NCBI GenBank assembly: GCA_026225275.1
Contig: JAMFSL010000294.1
Coordinates: forward strand, 1-44,957
DNA: 44,957 bases
Source of the DNA: Puia dinghuensis
GTDB taxonomy: Bacteria > Bacteroidota > Bacteroidia > Chitinophagales > Chitinophagaceae
Reading direction: 5' to 3'
The notes under the pieces are model-generated. The model was not told the DNA's origin. It saw only the letters and a list, made by a program, of their open reading frames with translations, and made no database searches. Position numbers and translations under genes: made by a program. Shown here one piece after another: positions 14,478 through 35,083 of the stretch (the first letter of the stretch is position 1; each line of letters opens with the position of its first letter).

Positions 14478-14680
14478 GGGAGAGGACGCGCGAGGGCGCG
14501 GCCGAAATACCCGAGCGAAGCGAAGGGTACGAACGTTCCCGAGGGAACGAAGGGAACGACCGAGGAAAGGCGAGGGACGAAGCCTTGCCGAAGGTCTGGC
14601 CGTGGCGAAGCAGGCCCAACGAAGTTCTAGGGCCAGTGTTGTGGTCGGGCGGGACAGAAGTGGCCCAGGGTTTGCGAAAA
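14478..14680 (+). repeat. GC-rich intergenic hairpin element A
   Basis: Starts 2 bp after the aminotransferase stop. Modules in order: GGAGAGGACGCGCGAG (14479-14494); hairpin TACCC (14508-14512), loop GAGCGAAGCGAA, GGGTA (14525-14529); GTTCCC/GGGAAC hairpin near 14535-14548; and ACGAAGTTC (14619-14627). The loop and ACGAAGTTC recur in elements D and E, the first module in B and C. An accidental open frame crosses it into the photolyase gene but shows no protein-like content. Confidence 0.75.
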
Positions 14681-14715
14681 AATCATGTTTAATTTCACTA
14701 TTGAAAAAGTTAAAC

Positions 14716-16044
14716 ATGAATGATCGGATAACTATTTTCTGGTTTCGCAGAGATTTGAGGCTGGAGGACAATGCCGGGCTGTATCATGCTCTGAAGCAGG
14801 GGGGACCGGTGCTACCACTGTTTATATTTGACCGGGATATCCTGGACTTATTGGAGGGGAAGGCGGACCGGCGGGTGGAATTTATCCATGCTGCGCTGGT
14901 GGAGATGCAGGGAGAACTTGAACGGGCAGGGTCTTCTCTTGAGGTGCGGGATGGGCGTCCGGTGGAAGTTTTCAAGCAGTTACTGGCAGAGTACGACGTG
15001 GCGGGTGTGGTGACGAATACTGACTACGAGCCCTATGCAACGGAAAGGGACCGGGCGGTGATGGACTTGCTGGCGACGAAGGGAGTTCGGCTCCATGCTT
15101 ATAAGGACCAGGTCATTTTTGAAAAAGGGGAAGTACTGAAGGATGATGGAACTCCTTATACTATTTTTACACCTTATAGCCGGAGATGGAAGGCGGCGGT
15201 GAATGACTTTTATTTATCGTCGTACCCTGTCAGCCGATACCGGCAACATTTCCTTCGACGGCCGCCGGCGGCTATTCCGGCATTAGAGACGCTGGGGTTC
15301 AGGAAGACAGGCGGTCCTTTTCCCTTGTCCACAATGAAGGCGGTGTTCCTGCAGCAATACCAGCAGCAACGGGATTATCCGGGTATTGCCGGTACCACCC
15401 GGATGGGGGTGCATCTGCGCCATGGGACTATTTCTATCCGGGCGCTGGCGCGACAGGCAGTCGCCAGCAGCGAAACCTATCTGAACGAGTTGATCTGGCG
15501 TGAATTTTACCAAATGATCCTTTGGTATTTTCCTGCAGTGGGGAAAGGAGCTTCGTTTAAGCCGGCGTATGACCATATTCAGTGGAGAAATAATGAACAG
15601 GAATTTGAGCGATGGTGTGCCGGGCAGACGGGTTATCCGATTGTCGATGCGGGGATGCGGGAGTTGAATGCTACGGGATTCATGCACAACCGGGTCAGGA
15701 TGATCGTCGCCAGCTTTCTGGCTAAGCACCTGCTGATCGACTGGCGGTGGGGGGAAGCTTATTTTGCCGAAAAATTATTGGACTTTGATTTGGCGGCGAA
15801 CAATGGCGGATGGCAATGGGCGGCGGGTTGCGGGTGTGATGCGGCGCCCTATTTCCGGGTGTTCAACCCGACGCTACAGACGAAAAGATTCGATCCGGAT
15901 TTCAGCTATATCCGCCGGTGGGTACCGGAGTGGGAAGAGCTGACTTATCCGCACCCTATGGTCGATCATGAGCAGGCGCGTAAGAGGGCGCTGGAGGTTT
16001 ATGGCCGGGCGGTGAAAGGAGAAGACGCGCGAGGGCGCGGCTGA
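14716..16044 (+). CDS. phrB: Deoxyribodipyrimidine photolyase (cryptochrome/photolyase family)
   Basis: A 442-residue flavoprotein that repairs UV-induced pyrimidine dimers with blue light. The N-terminal antenna domain starts ITIFWFRRDLRLEDN. The FAD domain contains TRMGVHLRHGTIS, ELIWREFYQMI, HNRVRMIVASFLAKHLLIDW and NNGGWQWAAGCGCDAAPYFR, placing it with class I CPD photolyases. The frame stays open further upstream, but that part is the repeat element A, so the ATG at 14716 is the sensible start. The last eight codons (GEDARGRG) and the stop are encoded by repeat element B. The Trp chain was not traced residue by residue. Confidence 0.93.
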   Translation: MNDRITIFWFRRDLRLEDNAGLYHALKQGGPVLPLFIFDRDILDLLEGKADRRVEFIHAALVEMQGELERAGSSLEVRDGRPVEVFKQLLAEYDVAGVVTNTDYEPYATERDRAVMDLLATKGVRLHAYKDQVIFEKGEVLKDDGTPYTIFTPYSRRWKAAVNDFYLSSYPVSRYRQHFLRRPPAAIPALETLGFRKTGGPFPLSTMKAVFLQQYQQQRDYPGIAGTTRMGVHLRHGTISIRALARQAVASSETYLNELIWREFYQMILWYFPAVGKGASFKPAYDHIQWRNNEQEFERWCAGQTGYPIVDAGMRELNATGFMHNRVRMIVASFLAKHLLIDWRWGEAYFAEKLLDFDLAANNGGWQWAAGCGCDAAPYFRVFNPTLQTKRFDPDFSYIRRWVPEWEELTYPHPMVDHEQARKRALEVYGRAVKGEDARGRG

Positions 16045-16076
16045 TATTAGAAGCGGAGCGATGCGCGAGGGATGCA
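16018..16076 (+). repeat. GC-rich intergenic element B, overlapping the phrB 3' end
   Basis: GGAGAAGACGCGCGAG (16018-16033) matches the first module of elements A and C at 15 of 16 positions and encodes the end of the photolyase. It is followed by TTAGAAGCGGAGCG and GATGC-GCGAGGGAT-GCATC, a small hairpin in the gap between convergent phrB and mqnD. Confidence 0.65.
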
Positions 16077-16913
16077 TCAATGCACGATCGATAGCGGCAG
16101 CGCCACTTCTTCCTGGCGGTCGTGCAGGCGGGCATAGGTCTGCAGCAGGGTCTGGATGGCTTTTTCGCCGTCATGGCCGAGCGAAAGGCTGTAGTTGTTG
16201 ACATAAAGATCGATATGTTGTCGCATGACAGCCTCGTCCATCTCCTGGGCATGATCCCTGACATAATCCGGCAATTTAGGATAATGACTAAAAGCATATT
16301 CCAGGCTTTTCCGTATGAGGGTATTGATCTTTACCGCAAGGGCAGGATCCTGACCTCCACGCAGCACGATACCGCCCAGCGGAATGGGTGCGCCTGTTTC
16401 TTTCTCCCAAAACTCTCCGAGGTCGAGCAATTTGGTCAGCCCTTTGTCCTGATAGGTAAAGCGATTTTCATGGATGATGACGCCGCAATCCGCCTTGCCG
16501 GTCAGCACGGCATCTTCGATGCCTGAAAAGATCATGAATTCTTTGTGACGGGCGGCAGGAAAGGCGAGGGAGAACAAGAGATGCGCCGTGGTGCGCTGGC
16601 CGGGGATGGCGATGCTGCATTCGCTAATATTGTCGAGGGGTATTGGCCGGCGGGCAATCAGCAGCGGTCCGACTCCCTTACCCAGGGCGCCGCCTGCATC
16701 GAGTAATTCATACCGGTCCAGTATCAGCGGTAATACGCCATAACTAATCTTGGAGATATCCAGTCGCCCCTGTAAGGCCCATTGGTTAAGGGTTTCGACG
16801 TCCTCTAGCCGGACATCGAAGTCGAGACCTTCCGTGTCGATCTTTTTGTTGACCAGGGCATCGAAAATAAAAGTGTCGTTCGGGCAGGGGCTAAAGCCTA
16901 AGGTAAGTGTCAT
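16077..16913 (-). CDS. mqnD: 1,4-dihydroxy-6-naphthoate synthase (futalosine pathway)
   Basis: A 278-residue enzyme, MqnD, which converts cyclic dehypoxanthine futalosine to 1,4-dihydroxy-6-naphthoate for menaquinone synthesis. It has the periplasmic-binding-protein-like fold of the family. Visible signatures: LGFSPCPNDTFIFDAL at the N terminus, DISKISYGVLPLIL, AIPGQRTTAHLLF, DCGVIIHENRFTYQ and PIPLGGIVLR. The frame is open 36 codons further upstream, but the ATG at 16913 gives the normal family start. It lies 5 bp after mqnB on the same strand. The remaining Mqn genes are not in the window. Confidence 0.93.
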   Translation of the reverse strand: MTLTLGFSPCPNDTFIFDALVNKKIDTEGLDFDVRLEDVETLNQWALQGRLDISKISYGVLPLILDRYELLDAGGALGKGVGPLLIARRPIPLDNISECSIAIPGQRTTAHLLFSLAFPAARHKEFMIFSGIEDAVLTGKADCGVIIHENRFTYQDKGLTKLLDLGEFWEKETGAPIPLGGIVLRGGQDPALAVKINTLIRKSLEYAFSHYPKLPDYVRDHAQEMDEAVMRQHIDLYVNNYSLSLGHDGEKAIQTLLQTYARLHDRQEEVALPLSIVH

Positions 16914-16918
16914 GGTGA

Positions 16919-17629
16919 CTAGTTTGTTGGTTGAAGAACGGTATTGTCCTGTTTGTTTAATTGTTCCAGTAATCGGATTAACTCTTCGTTTAGCCGGCCG
17001 ATAGCCAGGCGGATATCCCATTTTGTTTTATCCCGGACGCCAATGTCATTGGAAACCGCCCTCAGCTGAAGAAAAGCGATCTTTTCCCGGAGGCATACAT
17101 AATGTAAGGCTCCGCCTTCCATCCCTTCAACAACTGCGGCTGTATTTTGTTGATGCCACCGGATGCGGTCGGGATCGGTGGTGATTTCGTTGACGGTGGC
17201 GCTACGGACCGGTTCGAGGGCGGTCAGGTGCAGCAATCTCCGGTAGGGGTTGATCAAGCGACCGGAGGAAAAGGGTGGAATGTCGGGGCCGGTGAGTTTG
17301 AGATCAAAAAGGCTATTGAACCGGTGATCCTCCCAAACGCCGAGGTCGGCGAGCACTTCTTCTTCCACGGCGAGGACATCTCCATGGGGTCTACCGGTGA
17401 AGCAACCAGCGATGCCGGCCTGGATGATCAGGTCGGGTCGATGGTGGTTGATCTGTCGCATGAGTGACCAGGTGGTAGCGGTGCTGCCGACGCCGGTGAT
17501 CAGCGTGGCGATGGTGCGGGTGGTGCGGGTGGGGACGGCGTCGGAGATCCGGGTGGGGGATTCGGCCCGAAGAAAGTCTATAGTAGGTTGAATTTCAAAT
17601 GATGTGGCGGCGGCCAGTAGGATGTCCAT
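16919..17629 (-). CDS. mqnB: Futalosine hydrolase
   Basis: A 236-residue nucleoside-phosphorylase-fold hydrolase that releases hypoxanthine from futalosine. Signatures: DILLAAATSFEIQPTI start, ITGVGSTATTWSL, DLIIQAGIAGCF, the purine/ribose-binding VVEGMEGGALHYVC, and the catalytic Asp region AVSNDIG. It is followed after 5 bp by mqnD. The start overlaps a TTTG-containing region (GATATTTG, one mismatch to the -7 box, 4 bp from the ATG). Other nucleosidases share the fold, but the mqnD partner supports MqnB. Confidence 0.92.
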   Translation of the reverse strand: MDILLAAATSFEIQPTIDFLRAESPTRISDAVPTRTTRTIATLITGVGSTATTWSLMRQINHHRPDLIIQAGIAGCFTGRPHGDVLAVEEEVLADLGVWEDHRFNSLFDLKLTGPDIPPFSSGRLINPYRRLLHLTALEPVRSATVNEITTDPDRIRWHQQNTAAVVEGMEGGALHYVCLREKIAFLQLRAVSNDIGVRDKTKWDIRLAIGRLNEELIRLLEQLNKQDNTVLQPTN

Positions 17630-17648
17630 GGTACAAATATCGGAATCA

Positions 17649-17678
17649 TTGACATTGTTACACTATGTATTACCTTTG
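17649..17678 (+). promoter_or_regulatory. Promoter of the first PTPS-type gene
   Basis: TTG (17649-17651), a 19-bp spacer, and TACCTTTG (17671-17678) fit the Bacteroidota consensus. The predicted leader of about 60 nt to the ATG at 17747 was inspected for a preQ1 riboswitch and shows none. Confidence 0.65.
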
Positions 17679-17746
17679 CGAAAATTTTAGCGGTAGCGTG
17701 CCCACCCGAGATTATCGACCGGTGAGAGCGCTGCACAATTCGTATT

Positions 17747-18157
17747 ATGGTGTATCTGACGCGCCTGGAACATTTTAACGCAGCTCATAAACTATATAAT
17801 CCGGGCTGGAGTAAGGAAAAAAATGAAGCCGTGTTTGGCAAGTGTGCCAATGAAAACTGGCATGGGCATAATTATGAGCTGTATGTGACGATCAAGGGCG
17901 ATCCGGATCCGGATACAGGTTTTTTATTCGATGTCAAGCAGCTTAGTTCGATCATCAAAGATCATGTGATCGAGAAACTGGATCACAAGAATTTGAATAT
18001 AGAGGTGGATTTCCTGCAAGGGAAAATGTGCACGACCGAAAATCTGGCCATTGGGATCTGGCAGCAGTTGCAGCAGTATCTCCCAAAGGAAGTCCGGTTG
18101 CATGGGATCAAATTGTACGAGACACCGAGAATTTATGTGGAGTATTTCGGTGAATGA
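17747..18157 (+). CDS. 6-pyruvoyl-tetrahydropterin synthase-type protein, copy 1 (PTPS/QueD family)
   Basis: A 136-residue member of the 6-pyruvoyl-tetrahydropterin synthase / 6-carboxytetrahydropterin synthase family, acting on dihydroneopterin triphosphate. Zinc ligands are His14, His39 and His41 and the catalytic Cys is Cys33, giving the spacing C-x5-HGHNY (GKCANENWHGHNY). That spacing is the one in mammalian PTPS (GKCNNPNGHGHNY); QueD has C-x3-HGH. LDHKNLNIEV, TTENLAIGIW and YETPRIYVEY also follow mammalian PTPS closely. Either tetrahydrobiopterin-like or queuosine-precursor synthesis is possible; motif spacing favours the former. Followed by a second copy 69 bp downstream. Confidence 0.9.
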   Translation: MVYLTRLEHFNAAHKLYNPGWSKEKNEAVFGKCANENWHGHNYELYVTIKGDPDPDTGFLFDVKQLSSIIKDHVIEKLDHKNLNIEVDFLQGKMCTTENLAIGIWQQLQQYLPKEVRLHGIKLYETPRIYVEYFGE

Positions 18158-18226
18158 GGGAGAACGGACGGGGGAGTAAGCGAAGCGAATGAGGCGTGGT
18201 AGGACGAAAAATTATAAAAAATAATT

Positions 18227-18649
18227 ATGAGTGTAGGCGACAAGAGAGTGGCGGTCTTCCGTAAAGAACATTTTAATGCGGCGCATCGCATCTTCAATCC
18301 TGCGTGGGATGATGTGAAGAATGCGGAAGTGTTTGGGAAGTGCAGCAATCCTAATTATCACGGACATAATTATGAGCTGGTCGTCAAGGTGACGGGAGTG
18401 CCCGATCCGGAGACGGGGTATGTGATGGATATGAAGGTATTGTCGAAGATTACGGCGGAAGAAGTGCTGGAAAGGTTCGATCACAAAAACCTTAATCTGG
18501 ATACTGTGTATTTCAAGGAGCTGAATCCCACCGCGGAACATATTGCGGTGGTGATCTATGACTTATTACGGGCACGGATCGATATCCGGCTGGACTTACA
18601 GGTTAGGCTATACGAAACAGAAAGAAATTTTGTTGAATATCCTGCGTAA
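18227..18649 (+). CDS. 6-pyruvoyl-tetrahydropterin synthase-type protein, copy 2 (PTPS/QueD family)
   Basis: A 140-residue paralogue of copy 1. The active-site set is intact: His20, Cys39, His45, His47, Asp85/His86 (FDHKNLNLD) and Glu130 (LYETERNFVEY), again with C-x5-HGHNY spacing (GKCSNPNYHGHNY). Both copies keep all catalytic residues, so neither looks decayed; they may act on different pterins, form a hetero-oligomer, or one may serve queuosine synthesis (QueE is at 38486-39124). FolE, which makes the substrate, follows at 18896. Confidence 0.9.
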   Translation: MSVGDKRVAVFRKEHFNAAHRIFNPAWDDVKNAEVFGKCSNPNYHGHNYELVVKVTGVPDPETGYVMDMKVLSKITAEEVLERFDHKNLNLDTVYFKELNPTAEHIAVVIYDLLRARIDIRLDLQVRLYETERNFVEYPA

Positions 18650-18684
18650 GAGGTGGGATATCGTGGTTCAATATCCTGTGTGAA

Positions 18685-18812
18685 AGGAGAGGACGCGCGA
18701 GCAGAGCCCGTTCGAGGGAACGGGCGAACCTAGAAGCGACAGCGCTGTGATCGGGCCCGTCAGGGATTCGGCCGATCTTAGAAGCGCCAGCACTGTGGTC
18801 GGGCTTGTCAGC
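18685..18812 (+). repeat. GC-rich intergenic element C with 48-bp tandem units
   Basis: Opens with GGAGAGGACGCGCGAG (18686-18701), identical to the start of element A. Next is a hairpin, CCCGTTC (18707-18713), loop GAGG, GAACGGG (18718-18724). Then come two tandem units of about 35 bp, 48 bp apart (18729-18763 and 18777-18811), sharing TAGAAGCG, CTGTG(A/G)TCGGGC and GTCAG. It fills the gap between the second PTPS-type gene and folE. Confidence 0.7.
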
Positions 18813-18895
18813 GATATCGTGAGAAGATGGTATGAGGGGGAGATGAGGATCGCGGGTCGGAGGTTAGGACGGAAAATATTCAAATAACCGGATAT

Positions 18896-19492
18896 ATGGG
18901 CTATAAGAAAATAGAACAATACGACGAAGAGATCACGGCGGCGCTTACCGGGAATTACCGGCAATCATTGGATTTACTGGGTGAAGACCCTAACCGGGAA
19001 GGGCTGCTGAAGACGCCTGAGCGGGTGGCCAAAGCGATGCAATTCCTGACACAGGGGTATGACATGGATGCCCATGCCATCCTGAATTCCGCGAAGTTTC
19101 ATGAGCCTGTCAGTGAGATGATCCTTGTAAAAGATATTGAACTGTACAGTCTTTGCGAGCACCACATGCTGCCATTTTTCGGCAAAGCGCATGTCGCATA
19201 TATCCCCAACGGCTGGATCACGGGGCTGAGCAAGATTGCGAGGGTAGTAGATGTTTATTCCAGGCGGTTGCAGGTGCAGGAAAGATTGACGACGGAGATC
19301 CTGCATGCCATCAAGGAGACTCTACAACCGCTGGGTGTCGCCGTGGTTATCGAAGCGTCACACCTATGTATGATGATGCGGGGTGTTCAAAAACAAAATT
19401 CAGTGACGACCACTTCCGCTTTCTGGGGTGAGTTTGAAAAGAATGAGACGCGAAGTGAATTTACCAAGCTGATCTCTTCCAACCTTCATTAA
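18896..19492 (+). CDS. folE: GTP cyclohydrolase I
   Basis: A 198-residue type IA GTP cyclohydrolase, which converts GTP to 7,8-dihydroneopterin triphosphate for folate, biopterin and queuosine synthesis. Zinc ligands are Cys87 and His90 ([18 protein letters not shown]) and Cys158 ([10 protein letters not shown]). [34 protein letters not shown] and [14 protein letters not shown] are the conserved family blocks. It follows the two PTPS-type genes, which use its product, but is separated from them by the repeat element C. Confidence 0.97.
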
Positions 19493-19501
19493 AAAAGAGC
19501 T

Positions 19502-19509
19502 TATATTTG
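19502..19509 (+). promoter_or_regulatory. -7 box upstream of fabD
   Basis: TATATTTG fits TAnnTTTG exactly; a good -33 TTTG is not evident. The predicted start is about 19515, which coincides with the base of the hairpin at 19515-19555. Confidence 0.45.
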
Positions 19510-19514
19510 CAGCC

Positions 19515-19555
19515 GTGCCGGGGATGGATCGTTTTGAATCAATCCTATCCGGCAC
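19515..19555 (+). other. Hairpin at the predicted 5' end of the fabD transcript
   Basis: GTGCCGG (19515-19521) pairs perfectly with CCGGCAC (19549-19555); inside, GGAT (19522-19525) pairs with ATCC (19542-19545) and GAT (19527-19529) with ATC (19538-19540). No T run follows, so it is not a normal terminator; it may stabilise or regulate the fabD mRNA. Confidence 0.5.
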
Positions 19556-19574
19556 ATACTAAACCCCGAACAGA

Positions 19575-20465
19575 ATGAAGCATGCGTACGTGTTCCCGGG
19601 ACAGGGATCTCAGTTTCCCGGAATGGGTAAAAGTCTTTATGAGAACAGCGTTTTTGCCAAGAAGCTATTCGAGCAGGCGAATGAAACGCTTGGCTTTCGG
19701 ATTTCCGACAGTATGTTCACCGGCACTGAGGAGGAATTGAGGCAGACGAAGGTGACGCAGCCGGCTATTTTCCTGCATTCAGTTATCGCGTTCAAGAGTA
19801 TTGAAAATAATAAGCCTGAAATGGTAGCTGGTCATTCCCTGGGGGAATTTTCCGCGCTGGTGGCTTGTGGTGTATTGAGCTTTGAGGACGGATTGCAATT
19901 GGTATCGGCGCGGGCCCAGGCCATGCAGAAAGCCTGTGAAGCAGGGCCTTCCTCTATGGCGGCTGTGCTGGGGCTGGAAGATGACAAAGTAGAAGCTATC
20001 TGTGCCGCTATCAGAGAAACGACGGGTGAAGTGGTAGTGCCTGCGAATTACAATTGTCCGGGCCAACTGGTGATCAGCGGCAGTGTCAAAGGTATTGAGG
20101 TGGCTTGTGAGCAATTGAAGGCGGCCGGTGCGAAGAGGGCGTTGGTATTGCCGGTGGGAGGTGCGTTCCATTCTCCTTTCATGGCTTCGGCGCAGGACGA
20201 ATTGAAGAATGCTATTGAGAGAACTACGTTTTATAATCCTGTCTGTGCCGTCTATCAGAATGTGGCGGCTAAGGCTGTGGTGGAGAAAGACGAGATCAAG
20301 AAAAACCTGATTGATCAGTTGACCGGCGCGGTGCGTTGGACGCAATCGGTGCAGGCGATGATTGCAGATGGCGGCTCACATTTTACGGAAATAGGTCCCG
20401 GTAAAGTGCTGCAAGGGCTGATCCAAAAGATCGACAAGTCGGTGCAGGTGGATGGAGTGAGTTAG
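19575..20465 (+). CDS. fabD: Malonyl-CoA:ACP transacylase
   Basis: A 296-residue enzyme that loads malonyl groups onto acyl carrier protein for fatty-acid synthesis. Nucleophile Ser88 lies in AGHSLGEFSALV; AYVFPGQGSQFPGMG at the N terminus forms the oxyanion loop; KVTQPAIFLHSV carries the conserved Gln; GGAFHSPFM (near 195-203) holds the catalytic His. FabH, the next enzyme to use malonyl-ACP, is encoded close by on the other strand. A structured leader precedes the gene. Confidence 0.96.
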   Translation: MKHAYVFPGQGSQFPGMGKSLYENSVFAKKLFEQANETLGFRISDSMFTGTEEELRQTKVTQPAIFLHSVIAFKSIENNKPEMVAGHSLGEFSALVACGVLSFEDGLQLVSARAQAMQKACEAGPSSMAAVLGLEDDKVEAICAAIRETTGEVVVPANYNCPGQLVISGSVKGIEVACEQLKAAGAKRALVLPVGGAFHSPFMASAQDELKNAIERTTFYNPVCAVYQNVAAKAVVEKDEIKKNLIDQLTGAVRWTQSVQAMIADGGSHFTEIGPGKVLQGLIQKIDKSVQVDGVS

Positions 20466-20479
20466 TGGGCGCGAGTGGG

Positions 20480-20953
20480 TCAGGCCTCGACGGAGCAGTT
20501 GATCCAACCGGCGTCGAACCGGGCCTGGTATTTTTGATAGAAATTGATGGCGGGTTCGTTCCAGTCCAGCACCTGCCAGACCATTCCCTTGAAATTTTTC
20601 TCTTTCATTTCTTCCATTACGCGTTCGAAAAGGAGTTTGCCCAGTCCTTTGCCGCGCATTTCCTGTGTAACGACAAAGTCTTCAAGGTAAAGGCGTTGTC
20701 CTTTCCAGGTGCTGTAACGGATATAGTATAGCGCAAACCCTTCGACCCGGTCATCGACGGTGGCGACAAACGCCCACCACACGGGCTGGGGGCCGAAGCC
20801 ACTGTCCGTAAAATGTTCGACCGTTACGGTCACTTCCTCTGGCGCCCGCTCATAATCGGCCAGTTCGCGGATCAATTCCAGCAAGCGGGGGCAGTCTTCC
20901 TTAACGGCTCTTCTGATGGTTATCGGTGGCTGGGCTATTGGTTGCTGAGTCAT
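20480..20953 (-). CDS. GNAT-family N-acetyltransferase
   Basis: A 157-residue acetyltransferase if started at the ATG (20953) just after the fabH stop in the arrangement TAAATATG; an earlier ATG at 20968 would overlap fabH by 13 bp. The acetyl-CoA-binding motif A is VVTQEMRGKGLGKLLFE, with R-G-x-G-x-G. The C-terminal part (VLDWNEPAINFYQKY) resembles diamine/spermidine acetyltransferase-like GNAT proteins. Substrate unknown; coupling to fabH suggests co-expression but not a lipid role. Confidence 0.88.
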   Translation of the reverse strand: MTQQPIAQPPITIRRAVKEDCPRLLELIRELADYERAPEEVTVTVEHFTDSGFGPQPVWWAFVATVDDRVEGFALYYIRYSTWKGQRLYLEDFVVTQEMRGKGLGKLLFERVMEEMKEKNFKGMVWQVLDWNEPAINFYQKYQARFDAGWINCSVEA

Positions 20954-20955
20954 AT

Positions 20956-21948
20956 TTAGTTTCCCCATTTGACCAAGGTGGCGCCCCAGGTAAATCCACC
21001 TCCAAAGGCTGCCAGTACCAGGTTGTCTCCTTTTTTCAATTTATCTTCCCAGTCCCATAGGCACAGGGGAATGGTACCGGCGGTCGTATTCCCGTAGCGT
21101 TGGATATTGATCATGACTTTTTCGCTGGAAAGTCCCATGCGGTGGGCGGTGGCGTCAATAATACGCTTGTTGGCCTGGTGTGGCACCAGCCAACTTATAT
21201 CTTCGGCCGTCAGGTGATTGCGTTCCATCAGTTCGGCGCTGACGTCGGCCATTCCTTTGACGGCGAATTTGAAGACTGCCTGCCCTTCCTGGTAGATGAA
21301 ATGCTCTTTGGCGGCTATGGTCTCGTTAGAGGCTGGCCGAAGTGAGCCGCCGGCTTTCATGTGGAGGTGATTGCGGCCGCTGCCGTCGCTGCGCAATATA
21401 CTGTCCAGCACCCCATAGCCTTCTTCATTGGGTTCCAGCAGCACTCCACCGGCGCCGTCACCGAAGATGATGCAGGTGGTACGATCGCTGTAGTCGACGA
21501 TGCTGCTCATTTTATCAGCGCCGAGGACCACGACCTTCTTATATCGTCCGCTCTCAATATACATGGCGCCGCTGGTCAGCGCATACAGGAAGCCTGAGCA
21601 TGCGGCACTCATGTCGAAGCCCCAGGCGTGTTTGGCGCCTACTTTGTCGCATACAATATTGGCAGTGGAAGGGAACAACATGTCAGGTGTGACGGTGGCA
21701 ACGATGACGCAATCGATCTCTTCGGGCTGAATGCCCCGTTTGCGGCAAATTTCCAGCACCACCGGAACGCAAAGGTCGGAGGTGGCTTTTCCGGCGCCTT
21801 TGAGAATCCTTCTCTCTTCTATTCCTGTGCGGGTACGTATCCATTCGTCATTGGTATCCACCATTTTCTCCAGGTCGGCATTAGTCAAACGGTCTTCCGG
21901 TACATATCCTCCGATCGCAGTTATAGCGGCGGTCATTTTTTTGCTCAT
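20956..21948 (-). CDS. fabH: Beta-ketoacyl-ACP synthase III
   Basis: A 330-residue condensing enzyme that starts fatty-acid synthesis by joining acyl-CoA and malonyl-ACP. The catalytic triad is visible: Cys117 in [11 protein letters not shown], His in [11 protein letters not shown], and Asn in [29 protein letters not shown] and the C-terminal [14 protein letters not shown] are family hallmarks. ATG codons at 21960, 21948 and 21936 are possible; [17 protein letters not shown] (21948) is the usual start. The downstream GNAT gene is coupled. Divergent from ruvA. Confidence 0.96.
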
Positions 21949-22015
21949 TATGAATTCCAATCAGGTGATGAAAAGTTTTTTGCAAAGGTGGGGAAAAATA
22001 TCCATTTTCGCGGCC

Positions 22016-22603: not shown

Positions 22604-22644
22604 CCTATCATTGGAACTCTACCTAACTAATTTTCACAGGAGAA

Positions 22645-28600: not shown

Positions 28601-30003
28601 CGGACAATTCGACCAGTAATATCTATGGGTACATGGACAGCACACAGGTGTTTGGCATGGATCTGCGTGACCAGCAGCCGGGATGGAAGTATGTGTTCGG
28701 GTCACGGCCGGATACGAACTTTATCAATAAGCTGGGGCAAAGAGGGCTGTTATCGTCAGATACGACTTTCAACAACCAGAATCTGATCAGTTATTCGCAG
28801 AAGATCGACATTTCGGCGGCCCTTGAGCCCATCAAGGATCTCCGGATAACCATTAACATTGATAAGAGTTTTGGCATGAACTATTCCGAGCTGGATAAGG
28901 ATACGTCCGGCGGATCTGGTCTCAACCGGCTTAACCCATACATGTCCGGCACTTTTACGATCAGCTATCTATCCTACAAGACGCTTTTTGAAAAGTATCA
29001 ACCGGACGAGGTGACGAGTACCTTTCTCAAGTTTGAAGATAACCGGTCGGTGATTTCGAGGCGACTGGGTTCAATCAATCGTTATACGGGTGGGTTGACG
29101 GGTGCGGACGGTTATGCACAGGGCTATGGCCAGTATTCGCAGGACGTGCTGATACCCGCTTTCCTGGCGGCTTATACGAAGACGGATGCCACGAAGATAC
29201 CGTTGATGAATGAGGCAGGAGGAGGTGTGACGAGCAGTCCCTTCAGCGGGTATTTGCCGAGGCCGAACTGGCACATCTCGTATTCGGGTCTGAGCAAGCT
29301 GCCCTGGTTCAGTAAGATCTTTACCAGTTTTAACCTATCTAATGCCTATACCAGCGGCCTCAGTATGGGCAGTTTCAATTCTAACCTTAGTTATGGTGAT
29401 CCGTTGAGATATGGGGTGCCGGGTTTTATCGATACGGCGACGGGGAATTTTCAGCCTTATTACCAGGTGCCCAATATCACGATACAGGAACAATTCTCGC
29501 CTTTATTGGGAGTCGACATGGCATTTGTCAACCAGATGCAGGGTAAGATGTCCTTTAGCCGGTCAAGGACAGTGAGTCTCAGCCTGGTGGATTACCAGAT
29601 GAGTGAGAGCCGGTCGACGGAATTGGATGTCGGCTGGGGCATCAAGATACCGAATGCGCCGCTGCCTTTTGGCTGGAAGGTGCCGGGCAATGGGAAGACG
29701 CCGCCTAACGGGCCACCCGGCAGTATCAATGCGAAGAAACCGTCTAATGATCTGACGCTGCGGATTGATGTGAGTTATCGGGATGATGCAATGTCCAGCA
29801 GTTATATCGGTCAGAATACCTCGCAGCCGACGGGTGGGCAGACGGTGATCAGGATCGATCCGTCTATCAATTACGTCCTGAATAACAGGATCAACCTGAA
29901 GTTTTATTTCGATGAGCAGCGGACGACACCCAAGATATCGACTACGCCGCCGATTGTGACGACGAAGGGGGGTATACAGTTGAGGATTGCGCTGGCGCCA
30001 TAG
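22645..30003 (+). CDS. sprA: Cell surface protein SprA, type IX secretion outer-membrane translocon
   Basis: A 2452-residue exported protein, the giant beta-barrel channel of the type IX secretion system required for protein export and, in gliding species, motility. A signal peptide occupies about residues 1-29 (ending ATASAKP). Family landmarks include LMRPNLTVSDNLFNRIFG, KLPISYNTLSTFNFENQLKL, VYIDDFEGSTSAIDLRFPL, GVENAQQPGYICTEVWFDEL and long antiparallel strand-rich stretches to the C terminus, which ends in GIQLRIALAP as an outer-membrane strand. TTG at 22645 is the only good start before a closing stop and directly follows AGGAGA. Length matches the family (about 2400). Repeat element D follows the stop. 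Confidence 0.95.
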   Translation: MTRYCFSSILATLLTCAASVVFSATASAKPFRLPVITRSIRDTIPADSAKKVKDSSKKDSLRWPIFDRRGDPLSNPDLNPFDLKDPSNLHDSIEYDPVTQQYYIVEKVGDQYYREPTYLTMDEMMALESQQAEDDYFRSRADAVDALNRKLMRPNLTVSDNLFNRIFGAGKPDIRPQGNVDITAGYQGQNIENPTLPQSARSTGAPYFNEDANLNVVGAVGSKLKLPISYNTLSTFNFENQLKLDYTGGPDEIVKKIEAGNVSFTTKSTLMTGAQSLFGIKTTLQFGKLTITGVIANETSQKQSVNSAGGAAVQNFSFSADAYDQNRHFLLAQYFKNNFNNAMSRLPVVNSNVQILRIEVWVTNRQGTDTSSRQIVGLMDLGETQPYNPKIHAQTNIPYPFSNANSEYTSIVNQPNSRNPSQVVSILNNLGLTQVQDFETVYARKLNASEYYFNPQIGFLSLNQTLQSSDVLGVAYQYSYNGTIYQVGEFATDVPPDTASAVTTGDIASPSATSGQSKVLFVKLLKATAQRTTLPIWNLMMKNVYSLKTASGSSLSNITKTGFQFNVNYNQPSAGTKRYLPVGPKADVPLLTVLGLDRLNANNDPGPDGIFDYIEGLTVISTLGTVIFPVLQPFGADLDTLAFAGSPASLKEQYVFSQLYDTLQAVAQTYANVDRYVLTGTAKGQTTNSLSLGAYNVPQGSVVVTAGGQTLKENVDYVVDYNLGQVQIINQSIINSGVPVNVSFENNANFGLQQKSFMGLRMDYVAKQTATETLTLGSTIERLNERPFFAKTDYGEDPVRNTMFGVDANYKGQLPQLTRALNHLYNTKEMSTINAYGEGAILRPGHPSQIGSGTSGAVYIDDFEGSTSAIDLRFPLTSWNLASAPSGLNGLYTPLFPEANYNDSLPYGYNRARLAWYNIDPTLQNTGGGSDPDSYENVLLDPRIDPVLVQNIFPQQSVATGQAQEVTFDMAYYPSDRGPYNFDTRPGSIIASTGKLANPATRWGGIMRALQQTDFETANIEVLQFWIESPFDKTSSSLPAGQANVGNSTGGVLYIDLGSVSEDILKDGQKAFENGYNTPNIVAAVDSFSVWGRVPANPIEVTDAFSNNAGDRPYQDIGLDGMSDGSEANHFASYLQQLGAIVGTGSSVYKAAALDPSSDDYVYYEDARYNPGGLSANGTGILGRYKYVNNPDGNSPIASTGSTTVSAFTLYPDQEDINNDNTMNTLEQYFEYKVNLFPLPDSFGTSMGHNFITDSIGPFTPTGGVPQTWYQISIPLAQYYQNVGSMPDFTSIQYMRMYMTGWQDSAVLRFAQLQLVRNTWRSFSYVIDTTGNLTLLPTNSPTTFNVTAVNIEQNSNRSPIQYQEPPGVQRQQELSSNNVNLLLNEQSMSLQICELAQFDTRGVYKTTNLDLRRYGTMDMFIHAEAAGTNQGNFNSGDLNAIIRIGSDFTSNYYEIRIPLVKTPWFDNQLPDVWPDSNNLNLSLQRLVKLKEDRNNAGFANTQYYKEIAGSRSYAIIGNPNLGAIQAIFLGVENAQQPGYICTEVWFDELRLTDISEKGGWAAVGKVDVKLADLGTLSVAGSNKSAGWGTIDQNTSERSYENDMELDVATNLELGKLLPKKANLSVPIYAGVTRTVATPEYDPFQLDIPLKTEVGLATSAKAKDSIRKEAIDAQTVTTLNLTNLHVNNPTNKKLQPWSIQNFNVSYSYTNTSHHSPLAIEDDNTTNKAIFAYSFNRTAKFHTPFAKMIKSKSKWLGLIRDFNYNLMPSVLSFQANVFHQFSPYRSRNVGGPADILPETFNNIFTFNRLYTLRWDFTKSLSVDYTATNSAWIDNDSGRLDKSMRRKVWTQFFKGGRTILFTQNVNVTYIVPTSKIPLLDWTSIKAGYTGSYTWTSYSQQVPTWGSSIANTQQRNLLADLDFTKLYDKWKVLKNLNAGLNSPANGKPDTSKNKKPLPLPPPITGPQLTGIPKALGRLLTMVKHITFNYSDNSTSNIYGYMDSTQVFGMDLRDQQPGWKYVFGSRPDTNFINKLGQRGLLSSDTTFNNQNLISYSQKIDISAALEPIKDLRITINIDKSFGMNYSELDKDTSGGSGLNRLNPYMSGTFTISYLSYKTLFEKYQPDEVTSTFLKFEDNRSVISRRLGSINRYTGGLTGADGYAQGYGQYSQDVLIPAFLAAYTKTDATKIPLMNEAGGGVTSSPFSGYLPRPNWHISYSGLSKLPWFSKIFTSFNLSNAYTSGLSMGSFNSNLSYGDPLRYGVPGFIDTATGNFQPYYQVPNITIQEQFSPLLGVDMAFVNQMQGKMSFSRSRTVSLSLVDYQMSESRSTELDVGWGIKIPNAPLPFGWKVPGNGKTPPNGPPGSINAKKPSNDLTLRIDVSYRDDAMSSSYIGQNTSQPTGGQTVIRIDPSINYVLNNRINLKFYFDEQRTTPKISTTPPIVTTKGGIQLRIALAP

Positions 30004-30006
30004 GAG

Positions 30007-30175
30007 TATGGCCCTTGCGGGCTACGGGACAACCGAGCAGAGCGAAGGTTGCGAACAAGGAGGAGCGAGGAACGACGCTCCAACGAAGTTCAGCCCGCGG
30101 GCCATACCGGCTAATGATGAGCCTTCGGCTGGTCGGCCTGTGGCCGTCCTTGATGGCCCTTGCGGGCTACGGGAA
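30007..30175 (+). repeat. GC-rich intergenic hairpin element D
   Basis: Located just after the sprA stop. Hairpin CAACC (30030-30034), loop GAGCAGAGCGAA, GGTTG (30047-30051) matches the hairpins of A and E with different stem bases; ACGAAGTTC is at 30083-30091, and GGAGCG/CGCTCC forms a further stem (about 30061-30080). The core lies inside a large inverted repeat: TATGGCCC-tt-GCGGGCT at 30007 onward against AGCCCGCGGGCCATA (30092-30106). A 22-bp segment at 30008-30029 is repeated exactly at 30153-30174. Confidence 0.75.
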
Positions 30176-30186
30176 AAATAGGCTGG

Positions 30187-30951
30187 CTACCCTTTATAAA
30201 AATAGATAGCGTCGGCCTGGGCTTTGCAGGTAATGACGAGGTCATTGATGCAGACGTGCGGCGGAAGCGATGCGCAATAGAATATGGCATCTGCTACGTC
30301 TTCTGCACTGAGTGGCGTATAACCTTCATAGATTTTTTTTGCCTGTCCTTCATCGCCTTTGAAGCGTACTTTGGAGAATTCTGTCTCGGCGGCGCCGGGA
30401 TGAATAGCGGTTACTTTGATCCCATGCCGCAGCATATCTATTCGCATCGACCGGGAGATGGCGTCGACTGCAAATTTACTACCGCAATACACGTTACCTT
30501 TTTCATAGACTTCTTTGCCGGCTACGCTACCGAGATTTATTATATGGCCATCGCCGGAAGGGATGAGCAGGGGGAGCACGGCTCTGCTCACGTAGAGCAG
30601 TCCTTTTACGTTGGTATCGATCATGGTTTCCCAGTCTTCGAGGCTGGCTTCATCGAAGTAGTCTCTGCCGAGGGCCAGGCCGGCATTGTTGATGAGGATG
30701 TCTATTTTTTGCCATTCGGAAGGCAGGCTGGCGACTGCGGCGAAGACGGCTGTGCGGTCCTGTACGTCGAAGTTGAGGGTGAAAACACGCTCGGGCGCGC
30801 CAGAGAGACTTTCGAGTTCGTGCTTTAAGGCGTCGAGTCTGTCTTTGCGGCGGCCGGTCAGGATGAGGCGGGCGCCGGCGGCGGCAAATTTCCGGGCACA
30901 GGCTTCACCGAAGCCTGAGGTTGCACCCGTGATGAAGATGGTCTTGTTCAT
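30187..30951 (-). CDS. SDR-family NAD(P)-dependent oxidoreductase (YdfG-like)
   Basis: A 254-residue classical short-chain dehydrogenase. Cofactor motif TGATSGFG (8-15), NNAG (88-91), catalytic Ser142, Tyr155 and Lys159 (YCGSK). TGRRKDRLD after beta-2 suggests NADP preference. The sequence resembles YdfG-type 3-hydroxy acid/serine dehydrogenases. Its ATG overlaps the alpha/beta-hydrolase stop by 4 bp, making it the last gene of the guaB-lnt-hydrolase-SDR string. Exact substrate unknown. Confidence 0.9.
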   Translation of the reverse strand: MNKTIFITGATSGFGEACARKFAAAGARLILTGRRKDRLDALKHELESLSGAPERVFTLNFDVQDRTAVFAAVASLPSEWQKIDILINNAGLALGRDYFDEASLEDWETMIDTNVKGLLYVSRAVLPLLIPSGDGHIINLGSVAGKEVYEKGNVYCGSKFAVDAISRSMRIDMLRHGIKVTAIHPGAAETEFSKVRFKGDEGQAKKIYEGYTPLSAEDVADAIFYCASLPPHVCINDLVITCKAQADAIYFYKG

Positions 30952-31838
30952 GCTTGTTGTACAAAGTTTATGAAATCATGTAAGATATCGTTGCAGGGGC
31001 CGGGGGTTTCATGCATGCCCTCGTGACCGGTGTTTTTTACCAGATGGATATGCGAAATGGCCGGCAGATGAGATTGTTCGAGGGCGCCTTGTAAGGGCAC
31101 GATGCTGTCTTCTTCGCCGATAATAAAGAGGACGGGGCCGGGAAATTCTCTGAGCACGGCTGTGCGGTCTGGCCGGGTGATCATGGCCTGGTACCAGGCG
31201 ATCAGTGTGTCCGGGGGAAACGCGGCATACCGGTCGATCATCGCATCGATCAGTTGGGGATGATGCTGATGGGTATACTGACCAAACAGGCCCGGGGTGG
31301 ATTGACGGATAAACAGATCGGCTCCGTTCTTCCGGATGAATTCAATGCTTTTACGGCGGATGGTTTTCTTTTCTTCGCTGTCGGGATAGGCGGTGGAATG
31401 AAAGAGCCCGAGAGCGGCGAGACGGTCGGGGTATTTTTCGGCAAAGGCGAGGGTAATATAGCCGCCCATACTATGGCCGATCATGATGCATTTGTCGATG
31501 CCGAGATGATCGAGGAGGGTCTTGACTGCGGCGGCGAGGTCTTCTATGGTGGTGGCAGACCCGGGCGTGGGATCGGAGGGCTGGGCAGGTGTCGCGAAGT
31601 CGGGAGCGCGATCGGCGGGGATGGCGGGGACGGCGGATGAGCGGCCACTGCCCGGAAGGTCGGGGATGATGAGCCGGCAGTGAGTTGATAAGGGGCCTGC
31701 GATGTTGTCCCAGGTGGCGCCGTCTTCGGCGAATCCATGAAGGAGCACGACGACAGGGCCGGTGCCGATATCGCGACAGAAGAGGTTGTCGGCCTGCGAG
31801 CCGACGGGCAAGCGGCCGATGTTGATCATTTTATCCAC
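30948..31838 (-). CDS. Alpha/beta hydrolase
   Basis: A 296-residue alpha/beta-fold hydrolase. The oxyanion HGFAEDGATWD near 34-44, nucleophile Ser123 in IGHSMGGYITL, acid Asp in IIGEEDSIVP, and catalytic His in NTGHEGMHE near 270 are in order. A low-complexity Pro/Ala/Ser/Asp-rich insertion (about 68-97) sits between LPGSGRS and the next helix, longer than in typical relatives. It overlaps lnt by 8 bp upstream and the SDR by 4 bp downstream. Substrate unknown; esterase, lactonase or C-C hydrolase activity are all possible. Confidence 0.9.
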   Translation of the reverse strand: MDKMINIGRLPVGSQADNLFCRDIGTGPVVVLLHGFAEDGATWDNIAGPLSTHCRLIIPDLPGSGRSSAVPAIPADRAPDFATPAQPSDPTPGSATTIEDLAAAVKTLLDHLGIDKCIMIGHSMGGYITLAFAEKYPDRLAALGLFHSTAYPDSEEKKTIRRKSIEFIRKNGADLFIRQSTPGLFGQYTHQHHPQLIDAMIDRYAAFPPDTLIAWYQAMITRPDRTAVLREFPGPVLFIIGEEDSIVPLQGALEQSHLPAISHIHLVKNTGHEGMHETPGPCNDILHDFINFVQQA

Positions 31839-33447
31839 GACTATTCTGCGTTTTAATGATGGTGATCACATGCCAGGCGAACAGCAGGACGGTCAACAGG
31901 ATGGCGATCTTTGAGATCAGGTCTCCGAACCGGACATAAAAGGTCATTTCCTGTTGCGGGGGGACATGGGTTGTGATGGTGCCTTGCTGGTCCCAGGGGA
32001 GGGACTGGAGTATATCGCCTGCGGGATCGATGACGCAGGAGATGCCTGTATTGGCGCTACGTATGATCCAGCGTCTTGTTTCAATGGCCCTGAGCCGGGC
32101 ATAGTCTCTATGCTGGCGGTGGCCGGGTGTGTTGCCCCACCAGCCGTCATTGGTGATGATGGCGATCAGGTCGGCGCCGTTGCGGACGTAGCGGGACATG
32201 AATTCGCCATAGATGCTTTCGTAACATACGGCAGGGGCTATATGGTACAGATTATCGGTGGTGGTCAGGGCGATGCGGTTGGGCTGGCCGGTATAGCTGC
32301 CGGTGGAACCGCCGAATTTTTCGAACCAGCTATCGAGGAAATGCAGGAAGGGGGGAAGGGTCTCTACGCCCGGCACCAGCATGGTTTTATGATAGATTCG
32401 GACCAGTCCGCCGCTATCCAGAATGGCAGCGGCATTATAGGTTTCGGCATATCTGTTGGACTGGGGAATTTGAAAGGCAGTGGGGGAATGTTTGTCATTG
32501 AAGAACCGGTAAGAATCTATTCCCGTAAGGAGATTGATCCGGGGGTGGCGCCGGAGAAAATCCCATAGCGGATTGAGAAAATAATTGTCTTTCAGGTGAT
32601 CTTCGTCGAAACCGCCATTTTCCAAGGCTGTTTCAGGCCAGATAACGAGGGTTGTGCTGCTGTCGGTGGCGGAGTCGCTTAGCCGGATGAGCTTTTGGAG
32701 TTGGGCGTCGAAGGTGCCGGTTTGAATCTTTTCATAGGGATCGATATTCGGCTGGACGATGACGATGTCGGAAGTGGGGCCTTTATCGGTGGCGAGGGTC
32801 TTACCGGAGGCGTAATCCTGATCGGGCGAGGGGGGAGTGAGGATCCTGGAACCGACCAGCGGGATGATCAGCAGCAGGGCGGCTATGAGGGCTTTGCGGC
32901 GACCTAACCGTTTATGCTGCACGAAATCCCACAGGAGCAAAAAGAACAGGATGTTCAGTAACCAAATCCACAATCCGCCGCCACTGACGCCGGTGTACTC
33001 ATACCATTGGACCCAGCCGGGGTGCGAGGCGAAGACATTACCAATGGTCAGCCAGGGCCAGCTGAGTCCCCAGTTCGATAGATGGAAATATTCGAAGCTC
33101 AGCCAAAAAACTATCAGTGCACTATAACCGAAAGCATGCCCCATCCTTTTATGGACCCAATGAAAGAGCATCCAGGGGATGCACATGAGCAAGCTGTTGG
33201 CGAGGATGGCGCCGCAGGCGCCGGGACCGGTGGAATTCCAGACCCACCAGGTGGCGCCGATATTCCAGATCAACATGGAAAGGTAGGTCCAGCCAAAGAA
33301 TTTAATTCGACGGATACCTTGCCGGTCCAGCCATAACAGGGGAACGAAGGCGATAAAAATCAATGGAGTCAGCGGTGATTCCGGCCACGCAGCATATAGC
33401 AGCAGTCCGGTGAGTGCCGACAGAAGAAAGGGGTGGAACTTTTTCAT
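31831..33447 (-). CDS. lnt: Apolipoprotein N-acyltransferase
   Basis: A 538-residue inner-membrane enzyme that adds the third acyl chain to lipoproteins. N-terminal half: several membrane helices (from FHPFLLSALTGLLLYAAW). C-terminal half: nitrilase-like periplasmic domain with catalytic Glu in VIWPETALEN (about 270), Lys in YHKTMLVPGVETLP (about 352) and Cys in VCYESIYGE (about 407), then a final membrane helix. Start is MKKFHPF at 33447; an upstream extension overlaps guaB. It lies 13 bp after guaB and overlaps the hydrolase by 8 bp. Lipoproteins such as BamD and SusD in this window are expected substrates. Confidence 0.95.
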   Translation of the reverse strand: MKKFHPFLLSALTGLLLYAAWPESPLTPLIFIAFVPLLWLDRQGIRRIKFFGWTYLSMLIWNIGATWWVWNSTGPGACGAILANSLLMCIPWMLFHWVHKRMGHAFGYSALIVFWLSFEYFHLSNWGLSWPWLTIGNVFASHPGWVQWYEYTGVSGGGLWIWLLNILFFLLLWDFVQHKRLGRRKALIAALLLIIPLVGSRILTPPSPDQDYASGKTLATDKGPTSDIVIVQPNIDPYEKIQTGTFDAQLQKLIRLSDSATDSSTTLVIWPETALENGGFDEDHLKDNYFLNPLWDFLRRHPRINLLTGIDSYRFFNDKHSPTAFQIPQSNRYAETYNAAAILDSGGLVRIYHKTMLVPGVETLPPFLHFLDSWFEKFGGSTGSYTGQPNRIALTTTDNLYHIAPAVCYESIYGEFMSRYVRNGADLIAIITNDGWWGNTPGHRQHRDYARLRAIETRRWIIRSANTGISCVIDPAGDILQSLPWDQQGTITTHVPPQQEMTFYVRFGDLISKIAILLTVLLFAWHVITIIKTQNSRG

Positions 33448-33460
33448 AGTGATAGCTGCG

Positions 33461-34963
33461 TTAACGGCTATAGTTCGAGGATTCCTTCGTGATCTCCACA
33501 TCGTGCGGATGGCTTTCTTTCATGCCGGCATTGGTGATCCTGATGAACTGTGCCTGTTCCCGCAAGGCGCGGATGTCTTTGGCGCCGCAGTAGCCCATCC
33601 CTGCCCGCAGGCCACCTACATATTGTTGCACCACTTCGGCGAGGTTGCCTTTGAAGGCTACGCGTCCTTCGATGCCTTCGGGCACCAATTTTTTGATATC
33701 GTCTTCCACGTCCTGGAAATAACGATCGCTGCTACCTTGTGTCATAGCGCCGATCGAACCCATGCCGCGATATTGTTTGAATTTCCGGCCTTCGTAGATG
33801 ATGGTTTCACCGGGGCTTTCTTCCACGCCGGCAAATACGCTGCCCATCATGACGGTGTTGGCGCCGGCAGCGAGGGCCTTGACCATGTCGCCGGTATAGC
33901 GGATGCCGCCGTCGGCAATGACGGGGATATTTCTGGCATTGAGGACAGATGCTGCCTCCAGTACTGCGGTGATCTGAGGAACACCTGCGCCCGCTACGAT
34001 CCGGGTGGTGCAGATGGATCCTGGGCCGATACCGACTTTTACGGCATCTGCCCCGGCATCGGCGAGGGCTTTAGCCCCTGATGCGGTGGCAATGTTACCG
34101 GCGATGACCTGAAGATTTTTGAAAGATTTCTTTAATGTTTTCAAAGCATTGATGACGCCTATATGGTGGCCATGTGCGCTGTCGAGGGTGACGACGTCTA
34201 CGCCGATCTGTTGTAATGCGGCGGCCCGGTCGAGGAGATCTTTGGTAATGCCAAGGGCAGCGCCGACGAGCAGGCGGCCGTAGGAATCCTTGACCGCGTT
34301 GGGATAGCTGGAGAGTTGCAGGATATCGCGATAGGTGATCAACCCGATGAGCTTGCCCTGCTTGTTGACGACCGGCAATTTTTCTATTTTGAATTTCTGC
34401 AGGATCTTCTCGGCCTTTTTGAGGTCGGTGCCTTCGGGGGCGGTAACGAGTCTATCTTTGGGGGTCATCACTTCGCTGACTTTGCGGCGCTTGTTGTCTT
34501 CGAAGCGCAGATCGCGGTTGGTGAGGATGCCTACGAGTACTTTATTATTATCTACGATGGGGATGCCGCCGATCTTGTTTTCCTTCATGAGGCGGAGGGC
34601 ATCGCTGATGGTGGACTCTTCGTGGAGGGTGATGGGATCGATGATCAATCCGGACTCACTACGTTTGACTTTACGAACTTGTTCGGCCTGCTTCTCGATG
34701 CTCATGTTCTTATGCAGGATGCCGATGCCGCCTTCGCGGGCAAGGGCGATGGCGAGGGTTGCTTCCGTGACGGTGTCCATTGCAGAGGACAGCATGGGAA
34801 TATTGAGTGTAAGGTCTTTGGTGAGCTTGCTACGGATATCCACTTCACGGGGCAATACCTCAGAAAATGCCGGTAATAACAGCACATCATCGAATGTCAG
34901 TCCATCGCCGAAAAATTTTGTGGGGGATTTTGCCTTGCGTGCGGGGGAAATTATTCTTGCCAT
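33461..34963 (-). CDS. guaB: Inosine-5'-monophosphate dehydrogenase
   Basis: A 500-residue enzyme oxidising IMP to XMP, the committed step of GMP synthesis. TIM-barrel domain with [17 protein letters not shown] and SAMDTVTEA near the N terminus; two CBS domains inserted at about 98-215; catalytic loop [11 protein letters not shown] with the active Cys near 314; and flap [17 protein letters not shown] with RYFQ. ATG at 34963 is preferred; an upstream TTG at 34969 is less likely. Its promoter at 34967-34999 ends 3 bp before the ATG, so the mRNA may be leaderless. Confidence 0.97.
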
Positions 34964-34966
34964 GTG

Positions 34967-34999
34967 CAAAGATAAAGCAAGCGCCCGGTACGCTCCAAA
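34967..34999 (-). promoter_or_regulatory. Promoter of guaB, with almost no leader
   Basis: On the minus strand TTTG (complement of 34996-34999), a 21-bp spacer, and TATCTTTG (complement of 34967-34974). Only CAC separates the -7 box from the ATG, so transcription should start at or near the start codon. Confidence 0.6.
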
Positions 35000-35012
35000 T
35001 TTTTGTCCGGAG

Positions 35013-35083
35013 CATGTAACCGAGCGAAGCGAAGGTTACGAACGAGGAGGGCCGTGTCGAAGCAGGCCTGACGAAGTTCTGAG
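35013..35083 (+). repeat. GC-rich intergenic hairpin element E
   Basis: Hairpin GTAACC (35016-35021), loop GAGCGAAGCGAA, GGTTAC (35034-35039), followed by GAACGAGGAGG, CGAAGCAGGCC and ACGAAGTTC (35071-35079), the last two shared with element A. Placed between dprA and the guaB promoter. Compared with A and D the loop is conserved and the stem bases change in compensating pairs. Confidence 0.75.

Follow-up and report, generated by a model that had tools for sequence, protein, structure and literature searches.

A dispersed family of folded extragenic palindromes with a strand bias in uncultured Chitinophagaceae bacteria

The 44,957-nucleotide contig JAMFSL010000294.1 of Puia dinghuensis (assembly GCA_026225275.1; the whole stretch is called the window below) carries copies of a short palindromic element at three sites, first noticed as hairpins in an original prediction made from the DNA letters. 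The element is a dispersed repeat family of uncultured Chitinophagaceae bacteria, in which the fold is kept while the stem letters change. We consider it reasonably probable that the copies represent a non-autonomous element resembling the repetitive extragenic palindromic (REP) elements, handled as folded single-stranded DNA with a putative HUH protein as the agent. The copies are short extragenic palindromes, and the intergenic position seen in the window holds for nearly all of them.

The repeat unit and the covariation of its stems

The three hairpins were found where the original prediction had placed them, at 14508-14529, 30030-30051 and 35016-35039 of the (+) strand, with the loops it had described and with the word ACGAAGTTC on their 3' side, starting at 14619, 30083 and 35071; CGAAGCAGGCC follows at the first and third sites only. 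The alignment of eleven copies revealed that these hairpins form the 5' portion of a larger unit, approximately 65 nucleotides long. Hairpin 1, for example, GTAACC-GAGCGAAGCGAA-GGTTAC, is usually followed by C and then by an outer stem GAAC/GTTC around GAGGA, hairpin 2 (which is variable), and GACGAA. The earlier picture of a single short hairpin with a 12-nucleotide loop was right about the hairpin but too narrow as to the unit, and the presumed loop contains further base pairs. It is an internal GA/GAA loop on which a mini-hairpin of the d(GCGAAGC) type often sits: 56 of the 68 hairpin-1 segments start with GA and end with GAA, and in 27 of the 68, two further pairs close a GNA (22) or GNNA (5) loop. 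These inner pairs also covary (GC...GC, GG...CC, GA...TC). A GNA or GNNA loop closed by two pairs corresponds to the very stable DNA mini-hairpin described for d(GCGAAGC), a synthetic motif in the cited part of that work and a part of a genomic repeat here, the likeness being one of sequence (PMC4686876). Hairpin 2 exists in at least two forms, one of which has nearly arbitrary palindromic stems around an RGT turn. Hairpins of the pattern stem(5+)-GAG...CGAA-stem occur 72 times in 890 kb of DNA from the clade, most of it selected for holding copies, versus once in one mononucleotide shuffle.

In the eleven-copy MAFFT alignment, produced without model fitting, 97.9% of the pair cells were standard compared with 86.9% after shuffling, and two-sided changes occurred at 7 of the 14 pairs; further pair types were not above the shuffles (11 vs 11.4). 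This alignment served to build a covariance model. Among 66 distinct copies of this genome (68 rows, with two places entered twice), 97.1% of the pair cells were standard compared with 78.5% when shuffled, 12 of the 14 pairs showed two-sided changes, and the covariation score was 0.448 against 0.136 for shuffled and at most 0.096 for slid controls; this larger alignment was fitted to the covariance model and is biased towards it. The 881 pair cells comprise 843 Watson-Crick pairs, 13 G-T pairs, and 25 unpaired cells. The case for structure rests on this covariation and not on stability, as the DNA folding energy of the copy at 35 kb is unremarkable (z -0.52) and that of the copy at 30 kb moderate (z -2.30). 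Across copies, the stems vary in sequence whereas the unpaired positions hardly change, which suggests that the element is probably recognized by its shape together with the internal-loop letters.

The original prediction took the compensated stem changes as a sign of selection on RNA or single-strand structure. The stems do covary, but covariation alone does not demonstrate selection, because paired changes could be made by mutation: template switching during replication copies one arm of a quasi-palindrome onto the other, and no present function would be needed. According to the cited part of a study of that process, template switching can generate perfect stems and keep them perfect, and the compensatory changes can be multibase (PMC8794818). 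It would fit the scarcity of one-sided states among the 881 cells, the almost arbitrary palindromes of hairpin 2, and the one true orthologous pair of copies, L038 in this genome (G000) and L244 in its closest available relative (G030), which carry compensated changes on both sides at neighboring stem pairs. It leaves unexplained the dispersal of at least 60 copies, their strand bias (see below), and the constancy of GA/GAA beside freely changing stems. As an account of how the covariation arose, template switching is a serious rival, if a partial one, and quite possible although we would not call it probable; it can be reconciled with a single-stranded DNA element and may generate part of the covariation alongside it.

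In REP elements, the stem sequence is usually conserved. The present family combines almost freely drifting stems with a preserved fold and preserved internal-loop letters, and does so within one clade for which many genomes are at hand. It offers a natural system for separating recognition of shape from recognition of letters, and structural selection from mutation by template switching, distinctions that conserved REP families hardly allow one to test.

Copy number, distribution and turnover

The recurrence of the hairpins is not a matter of chance: the 6.59 Mb genome contains the exact loop word 16 times and the reversed word not once. By manual reading, 11 of these 16 occurrences belong to recognizable units, one of which is clipped by a contig end, and the other 5 lie outside such units. 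The covariance-model search of this genome returned at least 70 matches at E<=1, and at least 60 at E<=0.001 under stricter filters. The proposal of a dispersed family comparable to REP elements, with stems kept paired, is borne out: the two outcomes named as refuting it, few further copies or stems that are not kept paired, did not occur. Among the relatives, which are metagenome-assembled genomes recorded as Chitinophagaceae or Bacteroidetes, copies are present in 15 of the 33 genomes of the genus and in none of the 25 others; G029, counted among the 15, yielded just one weak match. An independently chosen outer-stem pattern picked out the same 15 genomes, its reversed control being found in none of them and once in one other genome. 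A limited literature search found no description of this repeat.

Units are also nested in each other. The 14.5 kb site, taken for a simple copy by the original prediction, does contain the described hairpin, but it consists of one unit lying within another, immediately 3' of the GAAC of the outer unit, and additionally bears a 5' hairpin and a 3' tail common, wholly or partly, to nine other copies of this genome. The counterpart of the 30 kb site in G030 shows the same kind of nesting, and at four further loci of this genome (L042, L113, L116, and L119) a copy is enclosed by a second hairpin, the junction, which ends TAAGCAG, being similar. Nesting at similar junctions may reflect site-specific insertion or descent from one composite.

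Occupancy differs between close relatives. In G030, the closest relative available for this comparison, no copy is present at the C180:28052 site or at the site beside the RAYT1 gene introduced below; two gaps are occupied in both genomes, but at different points, and at the 35 kb site G030 has a copy with different stems.

Short tandem arrays of unit parts were observed at L123 near 1501-1566, at L127 and L035 at contig ends, and at G012:C202:19443-19577; the arrays at contig ends may have broken the assembly. By crude gene calls, the copy L038:1501-1564, whose orthologue is found in G030, falls inside a gene or at its end. A 36-nucleotide palindromic word, CCTTCGGCCGCCGAAGGCTTGCCGTAGGC..., at L251:3395-3430 has several matches in G030 and possibly belongs to another repeat family of the clade.

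Orientation of the copies

In three well-assembled relatives, 114 copies were grouped into 98 clusters. On contigs with more than one cluster, the majority strand of the contig holds 72 of the 86 clusters, against a shuffled mean of 59.0 (p 1e-4). We read the replication sign from the GC skew of stretches up to 20 kb, leaving out copies that were not flanked by gene calls on both sides or whose gap had already been used; 45 of 53 copies then lie on the G-rich strand (35/39 at |skew|>=0.04; 31/38 with stretches counted once). Flank skew in this genome gave 43 of 55 rows on the G-rich strand and 38/44 at |skew|>=0.05, after exclusion of 13 of the 68 rows as duplicate loci, rows with short flanks, or second same-strand copies at a locus; the nested window site is counted twice in 43/55, which otherwise becomes 42/54. 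Words of the same composition fall on the G-rich strand in 57.8-62.8% of cases, and the excess over this control persists (p 2e-5 to 4e-4 for 45/53; 0.001 to 0.011 for 43/55). High-scoring copies of this genome favor the G-rich strand by 26 to 2 and low-scoring copies by 17 to 10, so that biased insertion fits better than biased decay. In the window, eight 5-kb bins (1-40000) have positive skew and the copies are on the (+) strand.

A bias towards the G-rich strand is the signature expected of lagging-strand single-strand insertion. For IS608 and ISDra2, transposons of the IS200/IS605 family, both excision and insertion take place at the lagging-strand template, and their orientation is tied to replication, as summarized in the cited part of the literature on that family (PMC5371812). 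The strand of our element reading GAGCGAAGCGAA would fold into two adjacent modules, each built of a short stem, an internal GA/GAA loop, and a hairpin inside it; in hairpin 1, this innermost part is often a mini-hairpin of the GNA or GNNA kind. At replication forks, the lagging-strand template would be both the source of the folded strand and its target, as for these transposons, and the orientation would be set in this way. A limited literature search found no paper on an orientation bias of REP elements.

The orientation could alternatively follow transcription, if the copies were RNA elements of 3' untranslated regions whose folded sense transcript affects mRNA stability or termination. 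The very good covariation would suit such an RNA, and 35 of 41 copies in gaps between co-directional genes are on the coding strand (34/40 without the double count of the nested window site). Of the 93 sites behind this count, 17 had no gene call on one side and 5 lay in the gap of an earlier site; all gene directions stem from a crude in-house caller. However, the sense bias is weaker in the 20-kb-stretch sample (20/29, with copies partly shared with the former set), and 8 of 10 copies follow the skew where it conflicts with gene direction. The copy at 35 kb is antisense to both neighbors, as the IMP dehydrogenase and DprA genes flanking it are both on the (-) strand, and no Rfam family exceeded its gathering score in the window. 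Furthermore, the rarity of G-T (in RNA, G-U) pairs (13/881) argues against an explanation at the RNA level, although it is also expected from the correction of palindromes by template switching. Altogether, we find the untranslated-region explanation unlikely.

KOPS and Chi are oriented chromosomal DNA signals. A fixed signal of this kind, read by a strand-tracking host protein and kept in orientation by selection, would account for the strand bias; it accords poorly with modular 65-nucleotide units, nesting, tandem arrays, and differing occupancy in close relatives, and the bias is incomplete (8/53 against), making this account more doubtful still. Integron-like attC sites are also structure-read single-strand hairpins, and the variable stems, constant unpaired letters, and replication-tied orientation of the copies would suit them. 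They are a very improbable identity for the copies, which stand singly between ordinary genes instead of between cassettes and whose TACGAAC and GTTCTAA do not, by eye, form the RYYYAAC and GTTRRRY core sites of attC, no search for an integrase having been made.

Candidate proteins

The original prediction had proposed that a REP-associated tyrosine transposase (RAYT) be looked for; a protein of the HUH (Y1/RAYT-like) class is the likely candidate agent. RAYT-related genes were indeed found in the genome, but their link to the repeat is indirect. RAYT1 is an IS200-type protein of 158 residues (PF01797, 70.3 bits), encoded directly behind DAHP synthase and upstream of dehydroquinate synthase (L017:1420-2992); in the relatives checked, DAHP synthase lies on the same short locus. 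A repeat copy lies directly 3' of RAYT1 in this genome, the one such case among 16 orthologous loci, the locus in G030 being empty.

The second candidate, RAYT2, consists of two RAYT-like genes in tandem, encoding 199 and 198 residues. Both proteins match the NCBIfam model NF047646 (REP_Tyr_transpos), RAYT2a with 57 bits (E 1.9e-15) and RAYT2b with 49.9 bits (E 2.9e-13), below its cut-off of 80 bits. A profile search of the PDB with RAYT2a gave weak matches to IS200-type proteins (E 0.14 and 0.19). RAYT2a orthologues were found in 15 of the 33 genomes of the genus, including all 14 with at least 5 copies, and also in G034 from a sister genus; the pair is complete in those 15 genus genomes. RAYT2a keeps the HLH and WQ motifs as invariant columns (16/16 each), and tyrosine occupies the catalytic column in all 13 more distant homologues. 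The GA/GAA hairpins were absent from 21 loci, comprising the surroundings of 13 distant RAYT homologues and other element-free RAYT loci.

Several observations weigh against the reading of the copies as a single-stranded DNA element served by a RAYT-like protein. The catalytic tyrosine of RAYT1 is replaced by phenylalanine in 6 of 16 orthologues, and RAYT1 is missing in three copy-bearing genomes (G009, G019, and G031) and present in four copy-free ones (G015, G026, G027, and G028). In RAYT2a, the catalytic column holds histidine in 13, serine in 2, and glutamate in 1 of 16 sequences, with no tyrosine, and RAYT2b lacks the HxH motif in 15 of 15. In G007, G009, and G014, no PF01797 protein that we found retains the catalytic tyrosine. 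No copy with a significant score lies beside the RAYT2 genes (best 14.3 bits, E 0.16). One genome (G011) has the RAYT2 pair without copies; in a DAHP-synthase tree, read without support values, 13 of the 14 copy-rich genomes could be placed and fall into one clade with G011 neighboring it, so that the co-distribution of RAYT2 and copies does not count as independent evidence. As for the element itself, the flanks of 64 copies of this genome contain no GTAG/GTGG or CGTC foot tag, the conserved end-tag search giving just a weak TAAGC 3' of the last GTTC. Comparison with G030 yielded no readable clean empty site, insertion boundary, or target duplication, as the flanks are too divergent. Finally, the replication direction used here is that of the GC skew and not of a mapped origin.

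RAYT1 as the sole partner is weakened by the single adjoining copy among 16 loci and by the mismatched presence. In the RAYT2 pair, which lacks the tyrosine nucleophile, one partner retains HUH and the other has lost it. A more specific and rather speculative possibility is that the repeats are read by shape and bound, perhaps mobilized, by this pair, forming a domesticated, non-canonical single-stranded DNA system at replication forks. The replication-linked orientation and a RAYT pair without a tyrosine nucleophile provide concrete targets for assays.

Relation to known systems

The closest described relative is RAYT (TnpAREP) subclass 2.6 of Quentin et al. (2018), corresponding to Bertels group 5, from Bacteroidetes with "atypical secondary structures" (PMC6006769). 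Our system shares with it, in the cited part of that description, the phylum, the WQ motif, and the YIHxNP region, recognizable here as xIHENP, as well as repeats that lack a GT[AG]G foot and also occur elsewhere in the genome; the likeness of the repeats is to their description and not to repeat sequences (PMC6006769). Unlike subclass 2.6, where the catalytic tyrosine lies in YIH[QN]NP, RAYT2a has this tyrosine replaced in 16 of 16 orthologues and a tandem partner without HUH, and no copy of significant score flanks the genes (PMC6006769).

With canonical REP sequences and bacterial interspersed mosaic elements (BIMEs) served by TnpAREP in E. coli, as far as the cited parts describe them, the family has in common short extragenic hairpins in tens of copies, a RAYT-like gene in the genome, mosaic and nested arrangements, and stem irregularities (PMC8266576; PMC3733652). 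It differs in that we saw no GTAG/CGTC end tag, in the widely different stems within one genome, and in the two-module unit of approximately 65 nucleotides (PMC8266576; PMC3733652). The element is probably REP-like in working as it is in look; we stop short of calling it a canonical REP, as no end tag was seen in the flanks and the link to a REPtron is indirect. The likeness to IS200/IS605 lies in the presumed folded single-strand substrate and in an orientation that follows replication; unlike the members covered in the cited part, our element contains no transposase gene, and we identified neither a two-ended element nor a cleavage site (PMC5371812).

Copies in the window

All features described here are on the (+) strand unless noted. 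The 14.5 kb site begins with the 5' hairpin GAGGACGCGCGAGGGCGCGGCCGA of the long composite form (14482-14505), which with other stem letters also precedes eight other copies of this genome. Hairpin 1 of copy 1, TACCC-GAGCGAAGCGAA-GGGTA (14508-14529), scores 27 bits alone. The second module of copy 1 spans 14531-14627, its outer stem GAAC (14531-14534) and GTTC (14624-14627) being assigned from the alignment to un-nested copies; it holds the hairpin GGCC...GGCC (14598-14616) and is split by the nested complete unit at 14535-14596 (covariance-model match 14534-14596, 57.9 bits, E 5.3e-13). The nested unit is composed of hairpin 1, GTTCCC-GAGGGAACGAA-GGGAAC (14535-14557), and module 2, GACC...GGTC (14558-14596). 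The 3' tail TAGGGCCAGTGTTGTGGTCGGGC of the long composite form, identified by comparison among copies of this genome, follows at 14628-14650.

Copy 3 (35015-35079; 89.3 bits, E 2.9e-21), between the genes for IMP dehydrogenase and DprA, comprises hairpin 1 (35016-35039), the outer stem GAAC (35040-35043) and GTTC (35076-35079), and hairpin 2 within 35048-35069. No tRNA or tmRNA genes were found in the window.

Copy 2 (30028-30091; 78.1 bits, E 2.6e-18) comprises hairpin 1 (30030-30051), the outer stem GAAC (30053-30056) and GTTC (30088-30091), and hairpin 2, GGAGC-GAGGAACGAC-GCTCC (30062-30081). It is flanked by an open reading frame of 2452 codons on the (+) strand and a short-chain dehydrogenase gene on the (-) strand. 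An inverted repeat, TATGGCCCTTGCGGGCT ... AGCCCGCGGGCCATA, encloses copy 2 between its arms (30008-30110), and slightly downstream of it GGCCCTTGCGGGCTACGGG recurs (30153-30176), constituting another palindromic repeat.

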